Below are positions 6,014-43,342 of a stretch of 48,986 nt of DNA, one piece after another. Both the position numbers and the translations under genes were made by a program. A model generated the notes under the pieces. The model saw only the letters and a program-made list of their open reading frames with translations. It had not been told where the DNA came from and made no database searches. Within the stretch, counting starts at the first letter, position 1; every line of letters starts with the position of its first letter. Location: NCBI GenBank assembly GCA_021824345.1, contig JAKAKW010000010.1, positions 1 to 48,986 of the forward strand, given 5' to 3'. The DNA comes from a bacterium. GTDB lineage: Bacteria > Patescibacteriota > Minisyncoccia > Phycocordibacterales > UBA9973.

Positions 6014-6041
6014 ATACTAGCACCGAGGGAACAAAATGCAA
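6014..6041 (-). promoter_or_regulatory. Candidate sigma70-type promoter for pnp
   Basis: Minus strand TTGCAT-16 nt-TAGTAT upstream of the leader hairpins. Confidence 0.35.
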
Positions 6042-6195
6042 GCAGGAGCAAGCGTTTAGCCTTCTCGCTTTCCTCGCCGCCCCAGCGAGGCGGCTCAGGG
6101 GTCTCGCCCCCGCTCTCTCGTTCGCCTGCCGGCGAACTCGAACCGTGCCCGCTCGGGCTCGCAACCCGCTGCGAAGGCAAACGCTTGCTCCTGCT
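6041..6195. repeat. Palindromic element E1 (intergenic, copy-specific 17-bp arms plus shared GC-rich core)
   Basis: AGCAGGAGCAAGCGTTT / AAACGCTTGCTCCTGCT perfect arms, extended by GCCTT/AAGGC; core CTCGAACCGTGCCCGCTCGGGCTCGCAACCCGCTGCGAA at 6137-6175. Confidence 0.75.
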
Positions 6196-6206
6196 ATTGC
6201 CCTGTT

Positions 6207-6725
6207 TTAGTGCCGTCCGTTTCCCATTAAAAACTTTTTGGGGTTTTCGGAGAGATCCAGAAAGTCGTCCGCGGCTTCCTTGAGCTGCATGGAGGTGGAT
6301 TTGCCGAATGACGCCACTTCCACCAGCACTCCGGCGTAATTCTGCAGATATTCCACCAAAGGTATGAAATCCCCGTCCCCGGAGCAAATCACTACGGAGT
6401 CAAGCCGGCTGGCCATGCGCATTACATCCACGGTTAATCCTACGTCCCAGTCCGCCTTTTTCTCGCCGGAACGGAAAATCTGCAAGTTCTTCGTTTTAGT
6501 TTCAATTCCAATCTTGGTCAAAGCCTCAAAAAAATTCTTTTCGTCTCCGGCTTCAGTGGTTATCACATAGGCGATCGCCCGCACCAATTTCCGGCCGTTT
6601 ACCGCTTCCTTTAGTACCGCGCCAAAATTCACTCGCGCTTTATACAGATTGCGAGCGGAGTGGTACAAGTTTTGGGCGTCAATAAAAACGCCCACTCTCT
6701 GTTCTTTATGTTTTATTATTGCCAT
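6207..6725 (-). CDS. NYN-domain (LabA/DUF88-like) putative RNase
   Basis: RVGVFIDAQNLYHSARN, DVGLTVDVMRMA, VVICSGDGDFIPLVEYL. Confidence 0.9.
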   Translation of the reverse strand: MAIIKHKEQRVGVFIDAQNLYHSARNLYKARVNFGAVLKEAVNGRKLVRAIAYVITTEAGDEKNFFEALTKIGIETKTKNLQIFRSGEKKADWDVGLTVDVMRMASRLDSVVICSGDGDFIPLVEYLQNYAGVLVEVASFGKSTSMQLKEAADDFLDLSENPKKFLMGNGRH

Positions 6726-7081: not shown

Positions 7082-8035
7082 ATGGCGGAGGACATAGAAG
7101 AAGAAAACACAAAAAAGCCGAAAACCGACATTGAAAAAAAGAAAAGGGAATTTTTGGAGTATTTGGAACTGGAAAAAGGGTCCAGTTTGAAGACGATTGA
7201 GAATTATGACCGTTATCTTTCCCGCTTTTTTGATTTTGCGGGCATAAAAAAAGCCGGCGATATCAGCGATGAAAATATCCGCGAGTTTCGACTGTATCTA
7301 AACAGGCAGAAAGGAAACAAAGTGCGCGGCCAAACGGAAGCCACCATGAAAAAAAACACTCAGAATTATTATCTGATCGCTTTGCGCGTATTTCTGAAAT
7401 ATTTGATGAAGCGGGACACTCCCGCCCTCTCCCCTGATCGCATAGAGTTGGCAAAAATCAAAGAGAGGGGCTTGGATTTGATTTCCCCGGAGGAGCTTTC
7501 CCGTCTATTGGACAGTCCGGAAGGAAAAGAATTGGGAGACATGCGCGATAAGGCGATTCTTGAGCTTTTCTTTTCCACCGGTTTGCGCGTTTCGGAACTT
7601 GCTTCACTCAACCGGGATTTGGATTTGTCCAAAGACGAGTTCTCCGTCCGGGGAAAGGGAGAAAAAGTGCGAGTGGTTTTTTTATCAGACAGCGCAAAGC
7701 GCGCCATAAAGGAATATTTGGCAAAACGCAAAGATATGGAAGAAGCCATGTTTGTAAATTTGCCGAAACAAGAGAAGGCTCCCGTTTCGCGCTTGACCAC
7801 GCGTTCAATTCAGAGGATCGTGAAACATTACGCAACCAAGGCTGGAATATCAAAGAAGGTAACTCCCCATATCCTGCGCCATTCTTTTGCTACCGATCTT
7901 CTGCGAAACGGAGCCGATATCCGGAGCGTGCAGATGATGCTGGGGCACGCAAACATATCTACCACTCAGATATATACTCATGTAACGGATAAACAATTAT
8001 TGGAGGTTCACAAGAAGTTTCACAGCAGGAAGTAA
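7082..8035 (+). CDS. Tyrosine recombinase, XerC/XerD-like
   Basis: LFFSTGLRVSELASL, TPHILRHSFATDLLRNGADIRSVQMMLGHANISTTQIYTHV. Confidence 0.95.
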   Translation: MAEDIEEENTKKPKTDIEKKKREFLEYLELEKGSSLKTIENYDRYLSRFFDFAGIKKAGDISDENIREFRLYLNRQKGNKVRGQTEATMKKNTQNYYLIALRVFLKYLMKRDTPALSPDRIELAKIKERGLDLISPEELSRLLDSPEGKELGDMRDKAILELFFSTGLRVSELASLNRDLDLSKDEFSVRGKGEKVRVVFLSDSAKRAIKEYLAKRKDMEEAMFVNLPKQEKAPVSRLTTRSIQRIVKHYATKAGISKKVTPHILRHSFATDLLRNGADIRSVQMMLGHANISTTQIYTHVTDKQLLEVHKKFHSRK

Positions 8036-8157
8036 GCACAGAGGGCAAGATATGTTCTTCTTCGGGTACGGGATTTTTCTTGCTAGAAAAATCCCTGAAG
8101 TTCTCGCGCCGTCGCGCTCGAAACCCCCTGCGAAAAACATGTCTTGCCCTCTGTGCT
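8035..8157. repeat. Palindromic element E2 (intergenic, between xer and exonuclease III)
   Basis: AGCACAGAGGGCAAGA / TCTTGCCCTCTGTGCT 16-bp arms, extended by ATGTT/AACAT; inner hairpin GGGATTTTTC-TTGCTA-GAAAAATCCC; core CTCGCGCCGTCGCGCTCGAAACCCCCTGCGAA at 8103-8134. Confidence 0.75.
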
Positions 8158-20553: not shown

Positions 20554-22575
20554 ATGGACCATTTATCGGAATTAAACGACAGGCAGAAAGAGGCGGCGCT
20601 TCATACGAAGGGGCCGCTTTTAATCGTGGCTGGAGCGGGAGCGGGCAAGACCAAAACCATCACCCATCGCATAATTAACCTTATAAAACAGGGCATTCCG
20701 CCGGAAAAGATCCTGGCAGTGACTTTTACCAACAAGGCGGCAAGGGAAATGCGGGAAAGGATTTTATCCGAGATAGAAAAAAACGCGAAAGGACAAGACT
20801 CTTTCCCGTTTGTCAGCACCTTCCATGCGCTCGGCGTTTTCATCATAAAGGAAAATGCCCGCCTTCTGGGCCTTACCAGGCATTTCAGCATCCTGGATGA
20901 GGCAGATTCCACCGCTATGATCAAGGAATCTATCAAAGAAATAAATCTTGATCCGAAAGAATACGAACCGCGCCGAATAAAAGGTATCATCAGCCGAGAA
21001 AAAGGAAACTTTACCGACCTGGAAGAATATAAGGAGCGCCAAGACCATATGGCGAAGATCGCCGGCCGAGTATGGGAGCTTTACGAAGAAAAAAAGAAAA
21101 AAGAGAACGCCCTGGATTTTGACGATTTGCTCTTAAAGACGGTCAAACTTCTGAAGGAAAACAAAATTGTAAGAAAAAAATATCAGAACAAATGGGAATA
21201 CTTGCATATAGACGAATACCAGGACACGAACGAAGTGCAATATAGACTCTCGCTCCTCCTTGCGGAAGGACATGGAAACATCTGCGTAGTGGGAGACGCG
21301 GATCAAAATGTGTACAGCTGGCGGGGGGCAAACCTGAAAAATATTTTGCATTTTGAAAAAGATTATCCCGGCACAAAAGTGGTCTTGCTCGAACAAAACT
21401 ATCGTTCCACCCAAAATATCCTTGAAGCGGCCAATGTGGTTATCAAAAAAAACAAATTCCGGCCGGAGAAGAATCTTTTCACCAAAAATGAAGAAGGCGA
21501 TAGGATTTCCCTGTACGAAGCTCTGGATGAAACAGATGAAGCGGATTTTGTGGCAACGAAGATTTTGGAGATTTTAGACGGAGGAGGGATCAGTAAAATT
21601 TTCTCGGGTCCTCGGGTCGGCCGCACCTCGAAAATGCGAATCAGCGGCCTCAACCAGACCGCTCGAAAATTTTCTGATCTCCCCTCCGTCAATCTCTCCG
21701 AGGTTGCCGTCCTGTACCGCACCAATTTCCAGTCGCGCGCGCTGGAAGAAGCGATGCTCCGATACAATATTCAATACCAGGTGCTCGGGATAAAATTCTT
21801 TGAAAGAAGAGAGGTGAAGGATACTCTCGCTTACTTGCGGGCCGCTCTGAATCCGGACAGCCTTTCGGACATAAGGCGGATAATAAATTTTCCGAAAAGG
21901 GGAGTGGGCAAGGTTACTTTGGCCAAGCTTTTCGCGGGGGAAGAAAAATCATTACCGGCCGGCATGAGAGTAAAAATATCCATCTTTTACAAGGTTTTAG
22001 AGGAAATCGCGGAAAAAATCCGCACGGAAAAAGCAAGCGCCGCCATTAAATTTGCGGTAAAAAAATCCGGCATAGAAACAGAGCTATCCAGCGGCACAGA
22101 AGAAGATTCAGAGCGATTGGAAAACATAAAAGAGCTGGCTACGCTCGCTCTAAAATATGATCAAATGCCTCCCGGAGAGGGAATAGAAAAACTGCTGGAA
22201 GACGCTGCTTTAGCCGGCGAACAGGACAGCTTAAGCAATAAAAAAGAGAATGAAAACAAAAATGCCGTGAAGCTCATGACGGTACACGCCGCAAAAGGTT
22301 TGGAGTTTGAATACGTGTTTGTCGTCGGGTTGGAAGAAGGACTCTTCCCAAATGAACGCGAGGGTGAAGTAAAGTCAGCAGAAGACTCGGAAGAGGAGCG
22401 CCGCCTGTTTTATGTGGCGCTTACCCGCGCGAAGAAAAAACTTTTTTTGTCTTATGCCAATTACCGCACTATTTTCGGCTCTCGTTCCATCAACGCTCCG
22501 TCAGAATTCATATACGACATTCCGGGCGATCTTCTGGAACACGAAGGGGAGAAAATCAAAACAATCTATTTATGA
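20554..22575 (+). CDS. UvrD/PcrA-type superfamily 1 DNA helicase with an in-frame palindromic insertion
   Basis: GPLLIVAGAGAGKTKTITHRI, DEYQDTNEVQY, VVGDADQNVYSWRGA, LMTVHAAKGLEFEYVFVVGLEEGLFP, RLFYVALTRAKKKL. Confidence 0.96.
   Translation: MDHLSELNDRQKEAALHTKGPLLIVAGAGAGKTKTITHRIINLIKQGIPPEKILAVTFTNKAAREMRERILSEIEKNAKGQDSFPFVSTFHALGVFIIKENARLLGLTRHFSILDEADSTAMIKESIKEINLDPKEYEPRRIKGIISREKGNFTDLEEYKERQDHMAKIAGRVWELYEEKKKKENALDFDDLLLKTVKLLKENKIVRKKYQNKWEYLHIDEYQDTNEVQYRLSLLLAEGHGNICVVGDADQNVYSWRGANLKNILHFEKDYPGTKVVLLEQNYRSTQNILEAANVVIKKNKFRPEKNLFTKNEEGDRISLYEALDETDEADFVATKILEILDGGGISKIFSGPRVGRTSKMRISGLNQTARKFSDLPSVNLSEVAVLYRTNFQSRALEEAMLRYNIQYQVLGIKFFERREVKDTLAYLRAALNPDSLSDIRRIINFPKRGVGKVTLAKLFAGEEKSLPAGMRVKISIFYKVLEEIAEKIRTEKASAAIKFAVKKSGIETELSSGTEEDSERLENIKELATLALKYDQMPPGEGIEKLLEDAALAGEQDSLSNKKENENKNAVKLMTVHAAKGLEFEYVFVVGLEEGLFPNEREGEVKSAEDSEEERRLFYVALTRAKKKLFLSYANYRTIFGSRSINAPSEFIYDIPGDLLEHEGEKIKTIYL
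21577..21690. repeat. Palindromic element E4, in-frame inside uvrD/pcrA
   Basis: GACGGAGGAGGGATCAGTAAAATTTTC / GAAAATTTTCTGATCTCCCCTCCGTC arms; core CTCGGGTCGGCCGCACCTCGAAAATGCGAA at 21611-21640; 114 nt = 38 codons. Confidence 0.8.
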
Positions 22576-28051: not shown

Positions 28052-31000
28052 ATGGGGGATAAAAATCTTAAAATTATGGCAGGGATTCAGCGCGGAGGAA
28101 CGCGTATTCTTGCGGTTGCCGCGATGGTTATGTTCGTGTTTTTCTTTTTTGCGGGAACAGCCAAGGCTGATACCGGATTAGCGGTTACGCCATACGCGGT
28201 CGGTCAGAACTCCAACATAACTATTACCGGCTGGAATTATTCGGCGCCATATGCGCAATACAACCTGGAACTTACGCAGAGCGGAGTGCTTATAAGCAAC
28301 ATCGCCGACGTACAAGCAGACTCAAACGGATTTATAAAATACATATGGAATGTGGGAACTTCCACACTGGGGGACAACTACGCTGTTTTAATGACGAGTA
28401 AAAAGGACAGTTCCCAAATGTATTCCAACGCATTTTCAATAAGCGGAAATCCTCCTCCGATCTGCGCATCGGGTTTTATTTACGACCCAACATCCCAAAC
28501 TTGCAAGGCTATATGTTTTGCCACCCCGACTGACCCGATGGGGGCAAATTGTACAGGAAGCGGGGGTATTGTAATAACGTTGCCCAGCGGCGGGGGCGGA
28601 GGAGACAATACGCCGATTCCAGAATATATCTCGCACCTTTACGTCAAGACCTGTCCGGACAGCGCGGCAAGCGACCCGAATTGCCAAAAATCGGCAAAGA
28701 CGGATATCGGAATGAAGGTCACGGATACCAAAGCCATACTATGGGGAGAAGGAGGGCCGGATTCGGAATTGACTCCGTCTCTTCATACCACGGGATATTT
28801 CAGGTACTCTCCCATGACCATACCCCCGATATTTTGCAATGATATTTATGGCCCCGGCATGCACTCCACCGATGACTTTGATCTTGGAGACGGCACGGGA
28901 GGGGTGCGCCTTTTCAATAAACAAGTAACGGATTTGGCGCCCGACACCACATATTATTATTGCGCGGTGGTTTCAAACGCAAAAAGCATTGTTTACGGAG
29001 CGGTTAAAAGTTTTCATACCGCACAATGCATAAGTTGTCAGCAGACTAAGGTTACCACGGACAATCCGATGGTGCTCGGGCCAAATTCAGTTTCCTTAAA
29101 GGGATATTTCAGCGCCGTCCATGACGTGACTTCATATTTCCAATACAGAAAAACTCCCACAGATACAATCGCCATTCCGGAAGGAAACACGCCCTGGATT
29201 ACCGCAACGGGAAGCATCAAGAACAACCCGACCAGCTCATACACCGCAAACGGTTTTGCCAATTCCAGCGGATATCCCATGTATACTCTTTCGGGACTTG
29301 ATCCTTCCACGGATTATCAAGCCCGCCTGGTTGCCTGCGTGTCCCCCATGACTATGGACAGCAACGGAGAATGCGTCAGGCCGCAAGGAACCTCCGGGGG
29401 AGGAGAAGAAGTGGCGGGGAATATAAAGAATTTTACTACTAAGGCGGCTCCTCCTTCAGGCGGGAACGGAAACATAATCTGCCAGCAGACGGGAAACTGT
29501 CCGCCGGATCTTGTTGCGAGCGCGGTTTCTCCTTCTTCCGCCGTAGTCGGAACCACAACTGCTTTTTCAGCAACCATAACAAACCAGGGAGATCAATCTA
29601 CTGTCATTAATTTCCCGTATCTTTTCCAGAAGGAGCAGATAGTGGCCGGAGCGAGTCCGACGATAATAGACATTCCGGCTGAAAAAGCACTGGCTCTTGC
29701 CAAGGGAAGCAGGGAAACAGTTTCTTCCGCCATGTACTTCGATGCTCAAGGCACCTGGCAGGTGCGCGCTTGCGCGGACAAGACCAGCGCGTCGGACCAG
29801 TATGGGGTGGTGGACGAAGGGCCGAACCACGCGGGAGAAAGCAACAACTGCGGACCGTGGACCACGGTCACCGTTTCCAACAGGCCTATAAGCCAATACT
29901 GCTTGGATCACCCGAATGATACAAATATGTGCCCGCCGGATTTGACCGCCGGACCGGTTACTCCGAATTTTGCAAATGCGGGAACACCGGCAACATTTTC
30001 TTCAATAATAAGCAACATCGGTTCTTCTTCCGTAGAGCTTCCGTTCAAGAACCTTTTCCAACTCGACAACGACAGCAACCATGCAAACGGGGTGGCTGAT
30101 ATAGGCACTTCTACCGCTCAACCCATCGGCGCGGGAAAATCAACATCAGTGTCTATAAGTTACACGCTGCCGGCGGGAACATTCTACGTACGCGCCTGCG
30201 CGGACATGGCAAACGCAAACGACACCTATGGCTCGGTGGATGAAGGACCGGATCGCAAAGGAGAAAACAACAATTGCGGTTCGTGGACCAAGGTTACGGT
30301 ATATCCTGCTCCGCCAACTCCGCCGATGACTCCAGATCTGATCGCCGGACAAGTCAGTCCGAACGCGGTAAGCGCCGGGGTTCTGACTACTTTCTCCGCT
30401 TCAATCATAAACCAAGGCACCGCCTCCACTCGCACCGATTTCCCGTATCTTTTCCAAAAACAGCAAGTGATAGCCGGGGCAGCTCCCGTAATAACTGATG
30501 TGTATTTCGGCAGGACTTCCACCCTTGATGCAGGAACAAGCCGGACTGTTTCCGCCCCGATATCTTTGCCTTCAACAGGCACTTGGCAGGTGCGCGCTTG
30601 CGCGGACAAAGCTGGCGCAAACAATAGCGGGTTTATTAAAGAATCAAACGAGAATAACAACTGCGGACCGTGGTCAAACATCGCAGTTGCCACTCCTCCT
30701 TCCCCGGGTCCCGATCTTACGGCCAGCGTCGTTTACAGCGATAATTCTCCGGTTTCTGGTCAAAATATCACCTATCAAGCCACAATTACAAACCAGGGAA
30801 CCGCCTCTACTGGCACCGATTTCTTCAACCAGTTTCAAGTAGCGGATGCGGCAGGCGGGAAAGGGACGATTACAAAGGCTCCTTCCCAAAAAATGTCCGC
30901 CCTCCCTGCGGGAGAAAGCGGTACTATCGAATATTCATTCCTTCCTCCTTCGACCGGAACCTGGAGCATAAGAGTTTGCGCAGATGTTAATGGAGACGTT

Positions 31001-31915
31001 ACTGAAACAAATGAGAACAATAACTGCGGTTCGTGGGCAAATATTTACATCCGAACTCCATATTCTCCGCCTGGCCCTCCGAATTGGGGCGGTACAAATT
31101 GGAACGGATATTGGACAAGCCCGGATGGCACCGACTATTGGAATACAAATCCTTTCGGTAATGGAACTTTCTCCGGGTGGACGTGGCATGGAAATGACGG
31201 AAGCACTTGGCAGGGAGGCACGGTGGACAACGGGAACTTCAATGGAGGCATTTGGACTGGTCCGGATGGGCAAATATGGGATGGAGGGACACTGAACAAT
31301 GGTACTTGGAGCGGGGGAAGTTGGACGACAAGAGGAGGAAAATGGAGCGGGGGAAGTTGGAATAACGGCGTATGGAGCGGAGGAACTTGGACCGACGGAA
31401 CCAATACTTGGACCGGGGGAACTTGGAGTAACGGCACATGGTTCGGCGGTAATTGGAACGGGCAAACCGGCGGAAGCGGACAAGGGGGCGGAGGACAGAA
31501 TGGCGGGCAGGGTGGCGGACAAGGGAGCGGAGGACAGGGAACTCAAATCGGCCAGCATGCCATTCCGCCTTCGGATGCTATCGTGCGATATCACGAAGGC
31601 ATAGAAACCGTATTCGCAAGGCAAATTGTAAACCGCGCGGACTTGGCCGCCAAGCTCGGATACAAAGACGGAATGAATCTACAGCAATTCGCCTGGACCG
31701 TTGCGGACAATCTGGCTCGACACTCTTTCGCCTACATCAGCCCGCAAGGAGTGGAGGTGCGAGTCAGCTACCCGGACGTCGCGGCTTACGAACTTCGCCT
31801 TTCCGGAGACACTCTGCTGGTGTATGAATATTACAATGATGTGATCGTGGATATTCGCAATACCACTACCGTGTTCAAAAACAAATCGTATTACGAATAT
31901 TATTTCCAAAAATAA
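28052..31915 (+). CDS. Giant surface protein with about four CARDB-like repeats and a Gly/Trp (GxW) repeat region
   Basis: Repeats PDLVASAVSPSSAVVGTTTAFSATITNQG..RACAD..NNCGPW starting near 29500, 29930, 30330 and 30705; GGTWSNGTWFGGNW repeats near 31090-31460. Confidence 0.75.
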   Translation: MGDKNLKIMAGIQRGGTRILAVAAMVMFVFFFFAGTAKADTGLAVTPYAVGQNSNITITGWNYSAPYAQYNLELTQSGVLISNIADVQADSNGFIKYIWNVGTSTLGDNYAVLMTSKKDSSQMYSNAFSISGNPPPICASGFIYDPTSQTCKAICFATPTDPMGANCTGSGGIVITLPSGGGGGDNTPIPEYISHLYVKTCPDSAASDPNCQKSAKTDIGMKVTDTKAILWGEGGPDSELTPSLHTTGYFRYSPMTIPPIFCNDIYGPGMHSTDDFDLGDGTGGVRLFNKQVTDLAPDTTYYYCAVVSNAKSIVYGAVKSFHTAQCISCQQTKVTTDNPMVLGPNSVSLKGYFSAVHDVTSYFQYRKTPTDTIAIPEGNTPWITATGSIKNNPTSSYTANGFANSSGYPMYTLSGLDPSTDYQARLVACVSPMTMDSNGECVRPQGTSGGGEEVAGNIKNFTTKAAPPSGGNGNIICQQTGNCPPDLVASAVSPSSAVVGTTTAFSATITNQGDQSTVINFPYLFQKEQIVAGASPTIIDIPAEKALALAKGSRETVSSAMYFDAQGTWQVRACADKTSASDQYGVVDEGPNHAGESNNCGPWTTVTVSNRPISQYCLDHPNDTNMCPPDLTAGPVTPNFANAGTPATFSSIISNIGSSSVELPFKNLFQLDNDSNHANGVADIGTSTAQPIGAGKSTSVSISYTLPAGTFYVRACADMANANDTYGSVDEGPDRKGENNNCGSWTKVTVYPAPPTPPMTPDLIAGQVSPNAVSAGVLTTFSASIINQGTASTRTDFPYLFQKQQVIAGAAPVITDVYFGRTSTLDAGTSRTVSAPISLPSTGTWQVRACADKAGANNSGFIKESNENNNCGPWSNIAVATPPSPGPDLTASVVYSDNSPVSGQNITYQATITNQGTASTGTDFFNQFQVADAAGGKGTITKAPSQKMSALPAGESGTIEYSFLPPSTGTWSIRVCADVNGDVTETNENNNCGSWANIYIRTPYSPPGPPNWGGTNWNGYWTSPDGTDYWNTNPFGNGTFSGWTWHGNDGSTWQGGTVDNGNFNGGIWTGPDGQIWDGGTLNNGTWSGGSWTTRGGKWSGGSWNNGVWSGGTWTDGTNTWTGGTWSNGTWFGGNWNGQTGGSGQGGGGQNGGQGGGQGSGGQGTQIGQHAIPPSDAIVRYHEGIETVFARQIVNRADLAAKLGYKDGMNLQQFAWTVADNLARHSFAYISPQGVEVRVSYPDVAAYELRLSGDTLLVYEYYNDVIVDIRNTTTVFKNKSYYEYYFQK
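31090..31530 (+). repeat. Trp/Gly-rich tandem repeat coding region (GGxWxxGxWxGG)
   Basis: Recurrent ACTTGGA.../GGNGGAACTTGG units; peptide SGGSWTTRGGKWSGGSWNNGVWSGGTWTDGTNTWTGGTWSNGTWFGGNW. Confidence 0.8.
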
Positions 31916-43234: not shown

Positions 43235-43342
43235 AGACCCCGGAACATTTCCGAGCGGGGTGTCTCGCAGGCCGGCGGGCCGAGAGGCAGCGCTGGGCCA
43301 GCAGGCCCAGACAGCGACCCCGCGAGGGAAGTTCCGGGGTCT
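43235..43342. repeat. Palindromic structured element E3 between convergent genes (multibranch fold; possible terminator)
   Basis: AGACCCCGGAAC/GTTCCGGGGTCT outer stem; GCGGGGT/ACCCCGC second stem; inner TCTCG..CGAGA and CTGGGCC-AGCA-GGCCCAG hairpins. Confidence 0.75.

Follow-up and report, generated by a model that had tools for sequence, protein, structure and literature searches.

The gene for a pcrA/uvrD/rep-type DNA helicase carries, within its reading frame, a palindrome with a GC-rich core at a position where such proteins have a short linker. Is this segment an old part of the helicase, or a DNA element that has entered an essential gene and, if so, how does it persist there? We analyzed the whole stretch of DNA that contains the gene (48,986 nucleotides, hereafter called the window), the genome to which it belongs (833 kb in 16 contigs, 99.97% complete, whose named relatives are Nomurabacteria/Parcubacteria) and further genomes of the same genus and order.

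Results

The in-frame palindrome of the helicase gene

The features of the window are listed in Table 1. A 114-nt palindrome with two arms and a GC-rich core had been predicted inside the gene, and its arms (27 and 26 nt), position, length and peptide were borne out: the segment is a quasi-palindrome of exactly 38 codons with no stop in the helicase frame. Folded as RNA in a 134-nt stretch including short flanks, it reached -67.3 kcal/mol, compared with -37.7 +/- 3.8 kcal/mol in 200 dinucleotide shuffles, none of which folded as well (z = -7.8). The best PDB match of the helicase in Foldseek is PcrA (1pjr, E = 2.4e-53, TM 0.79), and the structures of PcrA, UvrD and Rep can be aligned to either side of the segment with approximately 5 residues between (347-353 of 1pjr), just as the expectation of a short linker had it. 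In the predicted model of the protein (overall pLDDT 79), pLDDT falls below 50 at residues 344-377, which are flanked by a helix and a strand and are predicted to form a disordered loop. A scan of the window against Rfam at the gathering threshold returned tRNAs only.

Table 1. Positions in the window of the helicase gene, the parts of its insert and the other palindromes
Feature	Position	Strand	Description	Evidence
pcrA/uvrD/rep-type DNA helicase gene	20554..22575	+	673 aa, carries the insert	NCBIfam pcrA 3e-202; Pfam UvrD-helicase, UvrD_C
Family C protein-coding palindromic element	21577..21690	+	38 codons in frame, residues 342-379	fold z = -7.8
Left arm	21577..21603	+	27 nt, locus-specific	sequence; pairing statistics over 63 family C copies
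Right arm	21665..21690	+	26 nt, near-perfect reverse complement of left arm	sequence
Conserved core	21607..21660	+	GGTCCTCGG...CCAGACC	alignment, own-genome copies
Inner hairpin of core	21619-21624 / 21644-21649	+	GGCCGC/GCGGCC	alignment, own-genome copies
Long intergenic palindrome	6019..6215	.		strong fold; models no better than chance, top score 10.9 bits, E = 1.7
Intergenic palindrome	8035..8157	-	related to families A/B, not C	R1 36.5, R3 31.9, R2 12.5 bits (E = 1)
Intergenic family A element	43235..43342	+		R1 90.4 bits, exact core match; copy is part of R1 alignment

Occupation of the uvrD site across the genus

We compared uvrD across some 60 congeneric genomes and several other families of the order. 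Ten congeners have no insert at the site, and most other uvrD genes of the genus have one at exactly the same codon. Outside the genus the site is 5-10 residues long, the sole exception being a genome from another family of the order (G117, locus L048), whose family A insert at the same site is partly masked as N. This comparison identifies the window segment as a lineage-specific in-frame insertion; its peptide, which is absent from the ten congeners and from nearly all of the other families sampled, is not an ancient conserved domain.

In different congeners the same uvrD codon is occupied by cores of three families in either orientation (A+, A-, B+, B-, C+ and C-) as well as by others. Family A inserts form a three-way junction and encode GVSQADGPRGSAPRARGDSDP or, in the inverted orientation, GSLSPRARGALPLGSSACETP, family B inserts encode RTLGRSDGDGQRKFSAENFRGES, and family C inserts encode FSQVLGSPGPYPGQTIRKS, the FSGPR... 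peptide of the window coming from a different frame. Rarer insert families are also present at this site, and in three genomes two elements follow one another. A quick tree, built without the inserts, requires at least 40 state changes at the insert site over 62 rows and at least 15 at a second uvrD site near residue 78; many of its forks are weakly supported, so that these numbers are rough. Since uvrD identity is about 83% even between the closest genomes, with the exception of one pair at 98% in which both members have the same insert, no insertion event has been caught together with a clean empty site.

Several further observations were made at these genes. Two uvrD genes whose DNA is 98.3% identical (L013 and L017, in genomes G035 and G067) differ by two protein-changing substitutions close to each other inside the inner hairpin of the insert, as expected for template-switch correction. 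The uvrD frames of L050 (G019) and L065 (G012), and also those of G096, G100 and G119, reach 1009-1111 aa owing to a large extra segment elsewhere, possibly an intein. A further type of palindromic repeat, with peptides that are GEGWGE-like or IPLLRGG...GTPQEENF, occurs at the same hotspots in uvrD (L031, L050 and L005) and tsaD (L327, L333 and L316).

Families, copy numbers and host genes

When the whole element was searched as DNA against its own genome, only the element itself and one 16-base match were returned, and a generic repeat search of the window also missed the family. Whole-element searches fail because the arms are variable, and covariance models are therefore needed. Three models were built from uvrD inserts (R1 for family A, R2 for family C and R3 for family B); under strict filters, and with a training set that enriches uvrD among the matches, they gave 378 matches to family A in 69 of the 80 genus genomes, 276 to family C in 65 and 215 to family B in 64. 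R2 scores the window element at 59.4 bits (21587-21683), this copy being itself among the 9 used to build the model. Seven confident family C copies are present in the own genome, six of them outside the training set, and the further homologous copies that a covariance search had been expected to reveal thus exist. Beyond the genus, family C occurs sporadically, in about 21 of 244 genomes from the order. Searches of viral contigs with the core patterns gave none, and neither plasmid records queried with family C nor phage records queried with family A contained similar DNA.

We examined 160 loci, of which 96 fall within open reading frames and 55 between genes, a ratio biased by a sample that favours high scores and uvrD-like training data. 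The hosts named by NCBIfam are UvrA, UvrB, UvrC, PcrA, RecG, LigA, PolA, PheT, IleS, LeuS, RsmA, TsaD, Fmt, MnmA, Tgt and CCA transferase, and also peptide deformylase, GlmM and a NifS-like protein. At least eight genes (uvrB, uvrC, rsmA, tsaD, fmt, mnmA, cca and recG) have different families at one position across species. These data show that unrelated families, in either orientation, have repeatedly entered fixed loops of many housekeeping genes. In tsaD, for example, a conserved R is separated from LPRP by an insert in roughly two thirds of 69 genomes, the inserts belonging to A+, A-, B+, B-, C+ or further families. Short palindromes were found at 4 of the 19 tsaD sites without a recognised core, compared with about 1 expected, and could be remnants or precursors of the elements. 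One tsaD loop without a recognised core (L358, in G009) consists of a perfect short palindrome, AGGACTTTGCT TTTAC AGCAAAGTCCT.

Conserved cores and locus-specific arms

The core can be recognised throughout 63 family C copies. Their arms are specific to the locus, yet each arm pairs with its own partner (self-complementarity score 17.7, versus 6.6 when arms are combined across loci). In genome G008, core identity of the family C copies is 0.88 and outer-arm identity 0.32, which is near chance, and the copies of the own genome likewise have conserved cores and locus-specific arms. Covariation is strong. In the family A inserts of uvrD, 126 double-change cells were counted, versus 40.7 +/- 5.3 after shuffling and at most 23 with slid partners; family C behaves similarly, with fewer sequences. 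In tsaD, one arm overlaps conserved host codons, and where it differs between species the opposite arm differs with it.

If an RNA hairpin were under selection, G-U mismatches should exceed A-C mismatches on the coding strand. Among 2253 arm positions of coding copies there are 43 G-U and 58 A-C mismatches (p = 0.16), and the intergenic copies are alike (13 and 21). Therefore, judging from the mismatch spectrum, arm pairing is maintained at the DNA level. Moreover, the core has opposite orientations within related arms in two sister pairs only, G006/G057 and G039/G054, whose arm identities rank 4 and 1 of 136; gene conversion or independent insertion could also have produced these inversions. 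Paired arm substitutions, no G-U excess and inversion of the spacer (in the two sister pairs) are what characterize an inverted repeat maintained by template switching, and all were found here.

Reading frame and the encoded peptide

On average, 4.7 of the six frames are open in the cores of coding copies and 5.0 in those of intergenic copies. A single frame is used by all coding copies of A+ (24/24), A- (19/19) and B+ (20/20), with two or three frames usually open, the copies at shared sites not being independent in these counts. Frame choice is less strict in family C (17/25 for C+), and the unused frames of family A would give more basic or more hydrophobic peptides. Such a choice fits selection at the protein level on translated inserts. 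From the open frame and the frame choice, we infer that the protein retains the insert.

Other palindromes of the window

A likeness of the core to intergenic elements at 6.1 and 8.1 kb had also been proposed. For the 6.1-kb element this is not supported: despite its strong fold, it is matched by none of the models (Table 1). The 8.1-kb element matches the models of families A and B and not that of family C, to which the helicase insert belongs. Patterns taken from these two elements show no excess in the window. Judged by model score, the clear intergenic relative of an in-gene family in the window is instead the family A element at 43.24 kb, which scores 90 bits. It is the strongest hairpin in the window, and its family is also found at the uvrD insert site in sister species.

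In addition, two adjoining and very similar hairpins (CTTGAGGTCACAATTTGTGACCTCAAG and CTTGAGGTGTCAAATTGACACCTCAAG) lie at 341-472 of the window, within or beside a minus-strand frame, and a 1287-aa frame at 28052-31915, perhaps a surface protein, has internal repeats of 29-113 nt.

Discussion

Origin and maintenance of the inserts

The inserts are probably protein-coding palindromic elements of an RPE-like kind (that is, like Rickettsia palindromic elements), which the host proteins would tolerate as disordered loops and whose arms and cores would be homogenised and flipped, respectively, by template switching. The window segment is one family C copy in a Nomurabacteria-like genus. An element comprises a core of about 45-70 nt, mostly open in 4-6 frames, between two mutually pairing arms of about 25 bp. 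The elements may be selfish or near-neutral DNA, surviving only at places where the protein can accommodate the encoded peptide as a surface loop, and mostly in the frame whose product is hydrophilic and near-neutral. During replication, template switching from one arm to the other would preserve the complementarity of the arms and flip the core, and copies may be lost by deletion between the arms. Both homogenisation of arms with spacer inversion (PMC8604942) and the creation and maintenance of stems (PMC8794818) have been described for template switching.

If the elements were ordinary MITEs, the entire palindrome would be mobilised in trans by an insertion-sequence transposase, with terminal repeats and target duplication, and the arms would differ merely by age. 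We consider this possible but somewhat unlikely. It does seem to describe one genome, G030, in which approximately 20 near-identical intergenic copies (L199-L216) of a 150-170 bp palindrome share their arms, have end repeats (TTGAATTACGAAACTC) and are bordered by 7-8 bp repeats, for example TATACAA and TTTATCA, that appear to be target duplications. These copies are apparently a recent MITE burst related to families A and B, so that the whole palindrome, arms included, is mobile in at least one relative. However, the burst is a subfamily related to A and B rather than to C. Family C shows no shared arms, no duplication outside its palindromes that is evident by eye and no clean empty sites among the compared genomes. 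The 88% identity of its cores in G008, beside outer arms near chance, is also hard to attribute to age alone, which fails to give like cores and unlike arms unless the two evolve by different rules. A more tentative idea, which we rate as unlikely, is that only the core is mobile and that the target's own flank is copied as an inverted repeat on arrival by fold-back or template-switch synthesis, the arms thus being built from the host gene. If true, this would constitute a class of mobile elements whose palindromes arise at the target instead of being brought along.

Mobilisation of single strands by a Y1 HUH transposase, as in REP/RAYT or IS200/IS605-like systems, is very improbable, even though Y1_Tnp genes above the cut-off occur in 54 of the 80 genus genomes. 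The own genome, which is nearly complete, has no Y1_Tnp, elements of each family are present in 19-20 of the 25 genomes that are free of it, copy number does not correlate with it (Spearman 0.14, 0.00 and 0.06), and no A, B or C element lies beside the six best Y1 loci. A current requirement for Y1/RAYT was rejected on these grounds; Y1 could have acted in the past. We give equally little credence to a selected mRNA structure, in which the hairpin would control how well mRNAs for repair and tRNA modification are translated or how stable they are. The very stable folds and the strong covariation of families A and C would agree with it, as would a seeming bias of the hosts towards DNA repair and translation. 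On the other hand, G-U is not preferred over A-C in either coding or intergenic copies, unrelated cores replace each other in either orientation, and ten congeners do without an insert. Least probable of all is removal or skipping at the RNA level, by an intron or by translational bypass, such that the segment never reaches the protein. Hairpins that are bypassed do interrupt genes in the mitochondria of one yeast, as cited in PMC6649704, but a skipped segment needs neither an open frame nor a choice of frame, and here one peptide-friendly frame is nearly always used and no stop occurs inside any uvrD match among the matches listed.

Significance

Protein-coding palindromes have been known mainly in Rickettsia and Wolbachia. 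The genus studied here, with its small genomes, contains hundreds of copies, which belong to at least three families and recur at the same loops of essential genes for repair and translation, and the record of their turnover is long enough for measurement. The phenomenon is much larger than the original prediction stated, as it involves several families, hotspots at fixed positions of many genes and coevolving arms, and the set also moves faster than could be seen from a single sequence. It offers a natural experiment on the entry of selfish hairpins into essential proteins, on how complementarity of inverted repeats is upheld without selection at the RNA level, and on the origin of peptide loops from DNA with open frames on both strands. 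There is also a warning for annotation: variable loops of Nomurabacteria-like proteins may be DNA repeats rather than domains.

Comparison with known systems

A literature search, which covered few subscription papers, found no precedent in CPR bacteria. The arm homogenisation and spacer inversion resemble template-switch mutation of quasipalindromes (PMC8604942, PMC8794818). That, however, is a mutation process and not an element, and it explains the upkeep and flipping but not the spread of the core. The mitochondria of nematomorphs are similar in having long inverted repeats within essential genes, which are actively maintained and gained or lost between species (PMC6649704). The passages on these repeats describe no conserved multi-copy core, whereas conserved cores recur at fixed loops here.

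Among bacterial repeats, REPs are mainly extragenic. The elements share multi-copy hairpins with REP/BIME sequences and their RAYTs, but REPs are 20-40 bp (PMC3733652) and no link to a Y1 transposase is seen here. MITEs such as Correia, RUP and ERIC are likewise short imperfect palindromes, and the G030 copies, with their end repeats and apparent duplications, come close to them; family C, in contrast, combines a conserved core with unique arms and no evident target duplication.

NCBIfam includes RPE domain models, and the insert peptides (8 and 5 compared with NCBIfam and Pfam, respectively) gave no match up to E = 10, a comparison made at the level of protein models. RPEs comprise several families, which are found in frame in conserved housekeeping genes as well as in intergenic regions and add the insert to the protein (Ogata et al. 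2000, 2002, as described in PMC2229807 and PMC10969869). The elements of this study differ from them in belonging to another phylum (a Nomurabacteria/Parcubacteria relative instead of Rickettsiales), in that a single codon of one gene is occupied, across a genus, by several families in either orientation, in their fixed hotspots, and in arms that are locus-specific and kept paired, while RPEs are reported to lose repeat identity with time (PMC6649704). Nevertheless, the analogy that had been drawn with RPEs, of an in-frame repeated palindrome from an apparently unrelated family, is supported by congeners that lack the insert and by the homologous copies found elsewhere. Like RPEs and their Wolbachia equivalent, which are palindromes of about 100-150 bp in several families with coding and intergenic copies, the window element is, at 114 nt, a stem-loop palindrome in the 105-150 bp range, and the elements described here reside both in frame within genes and between them.
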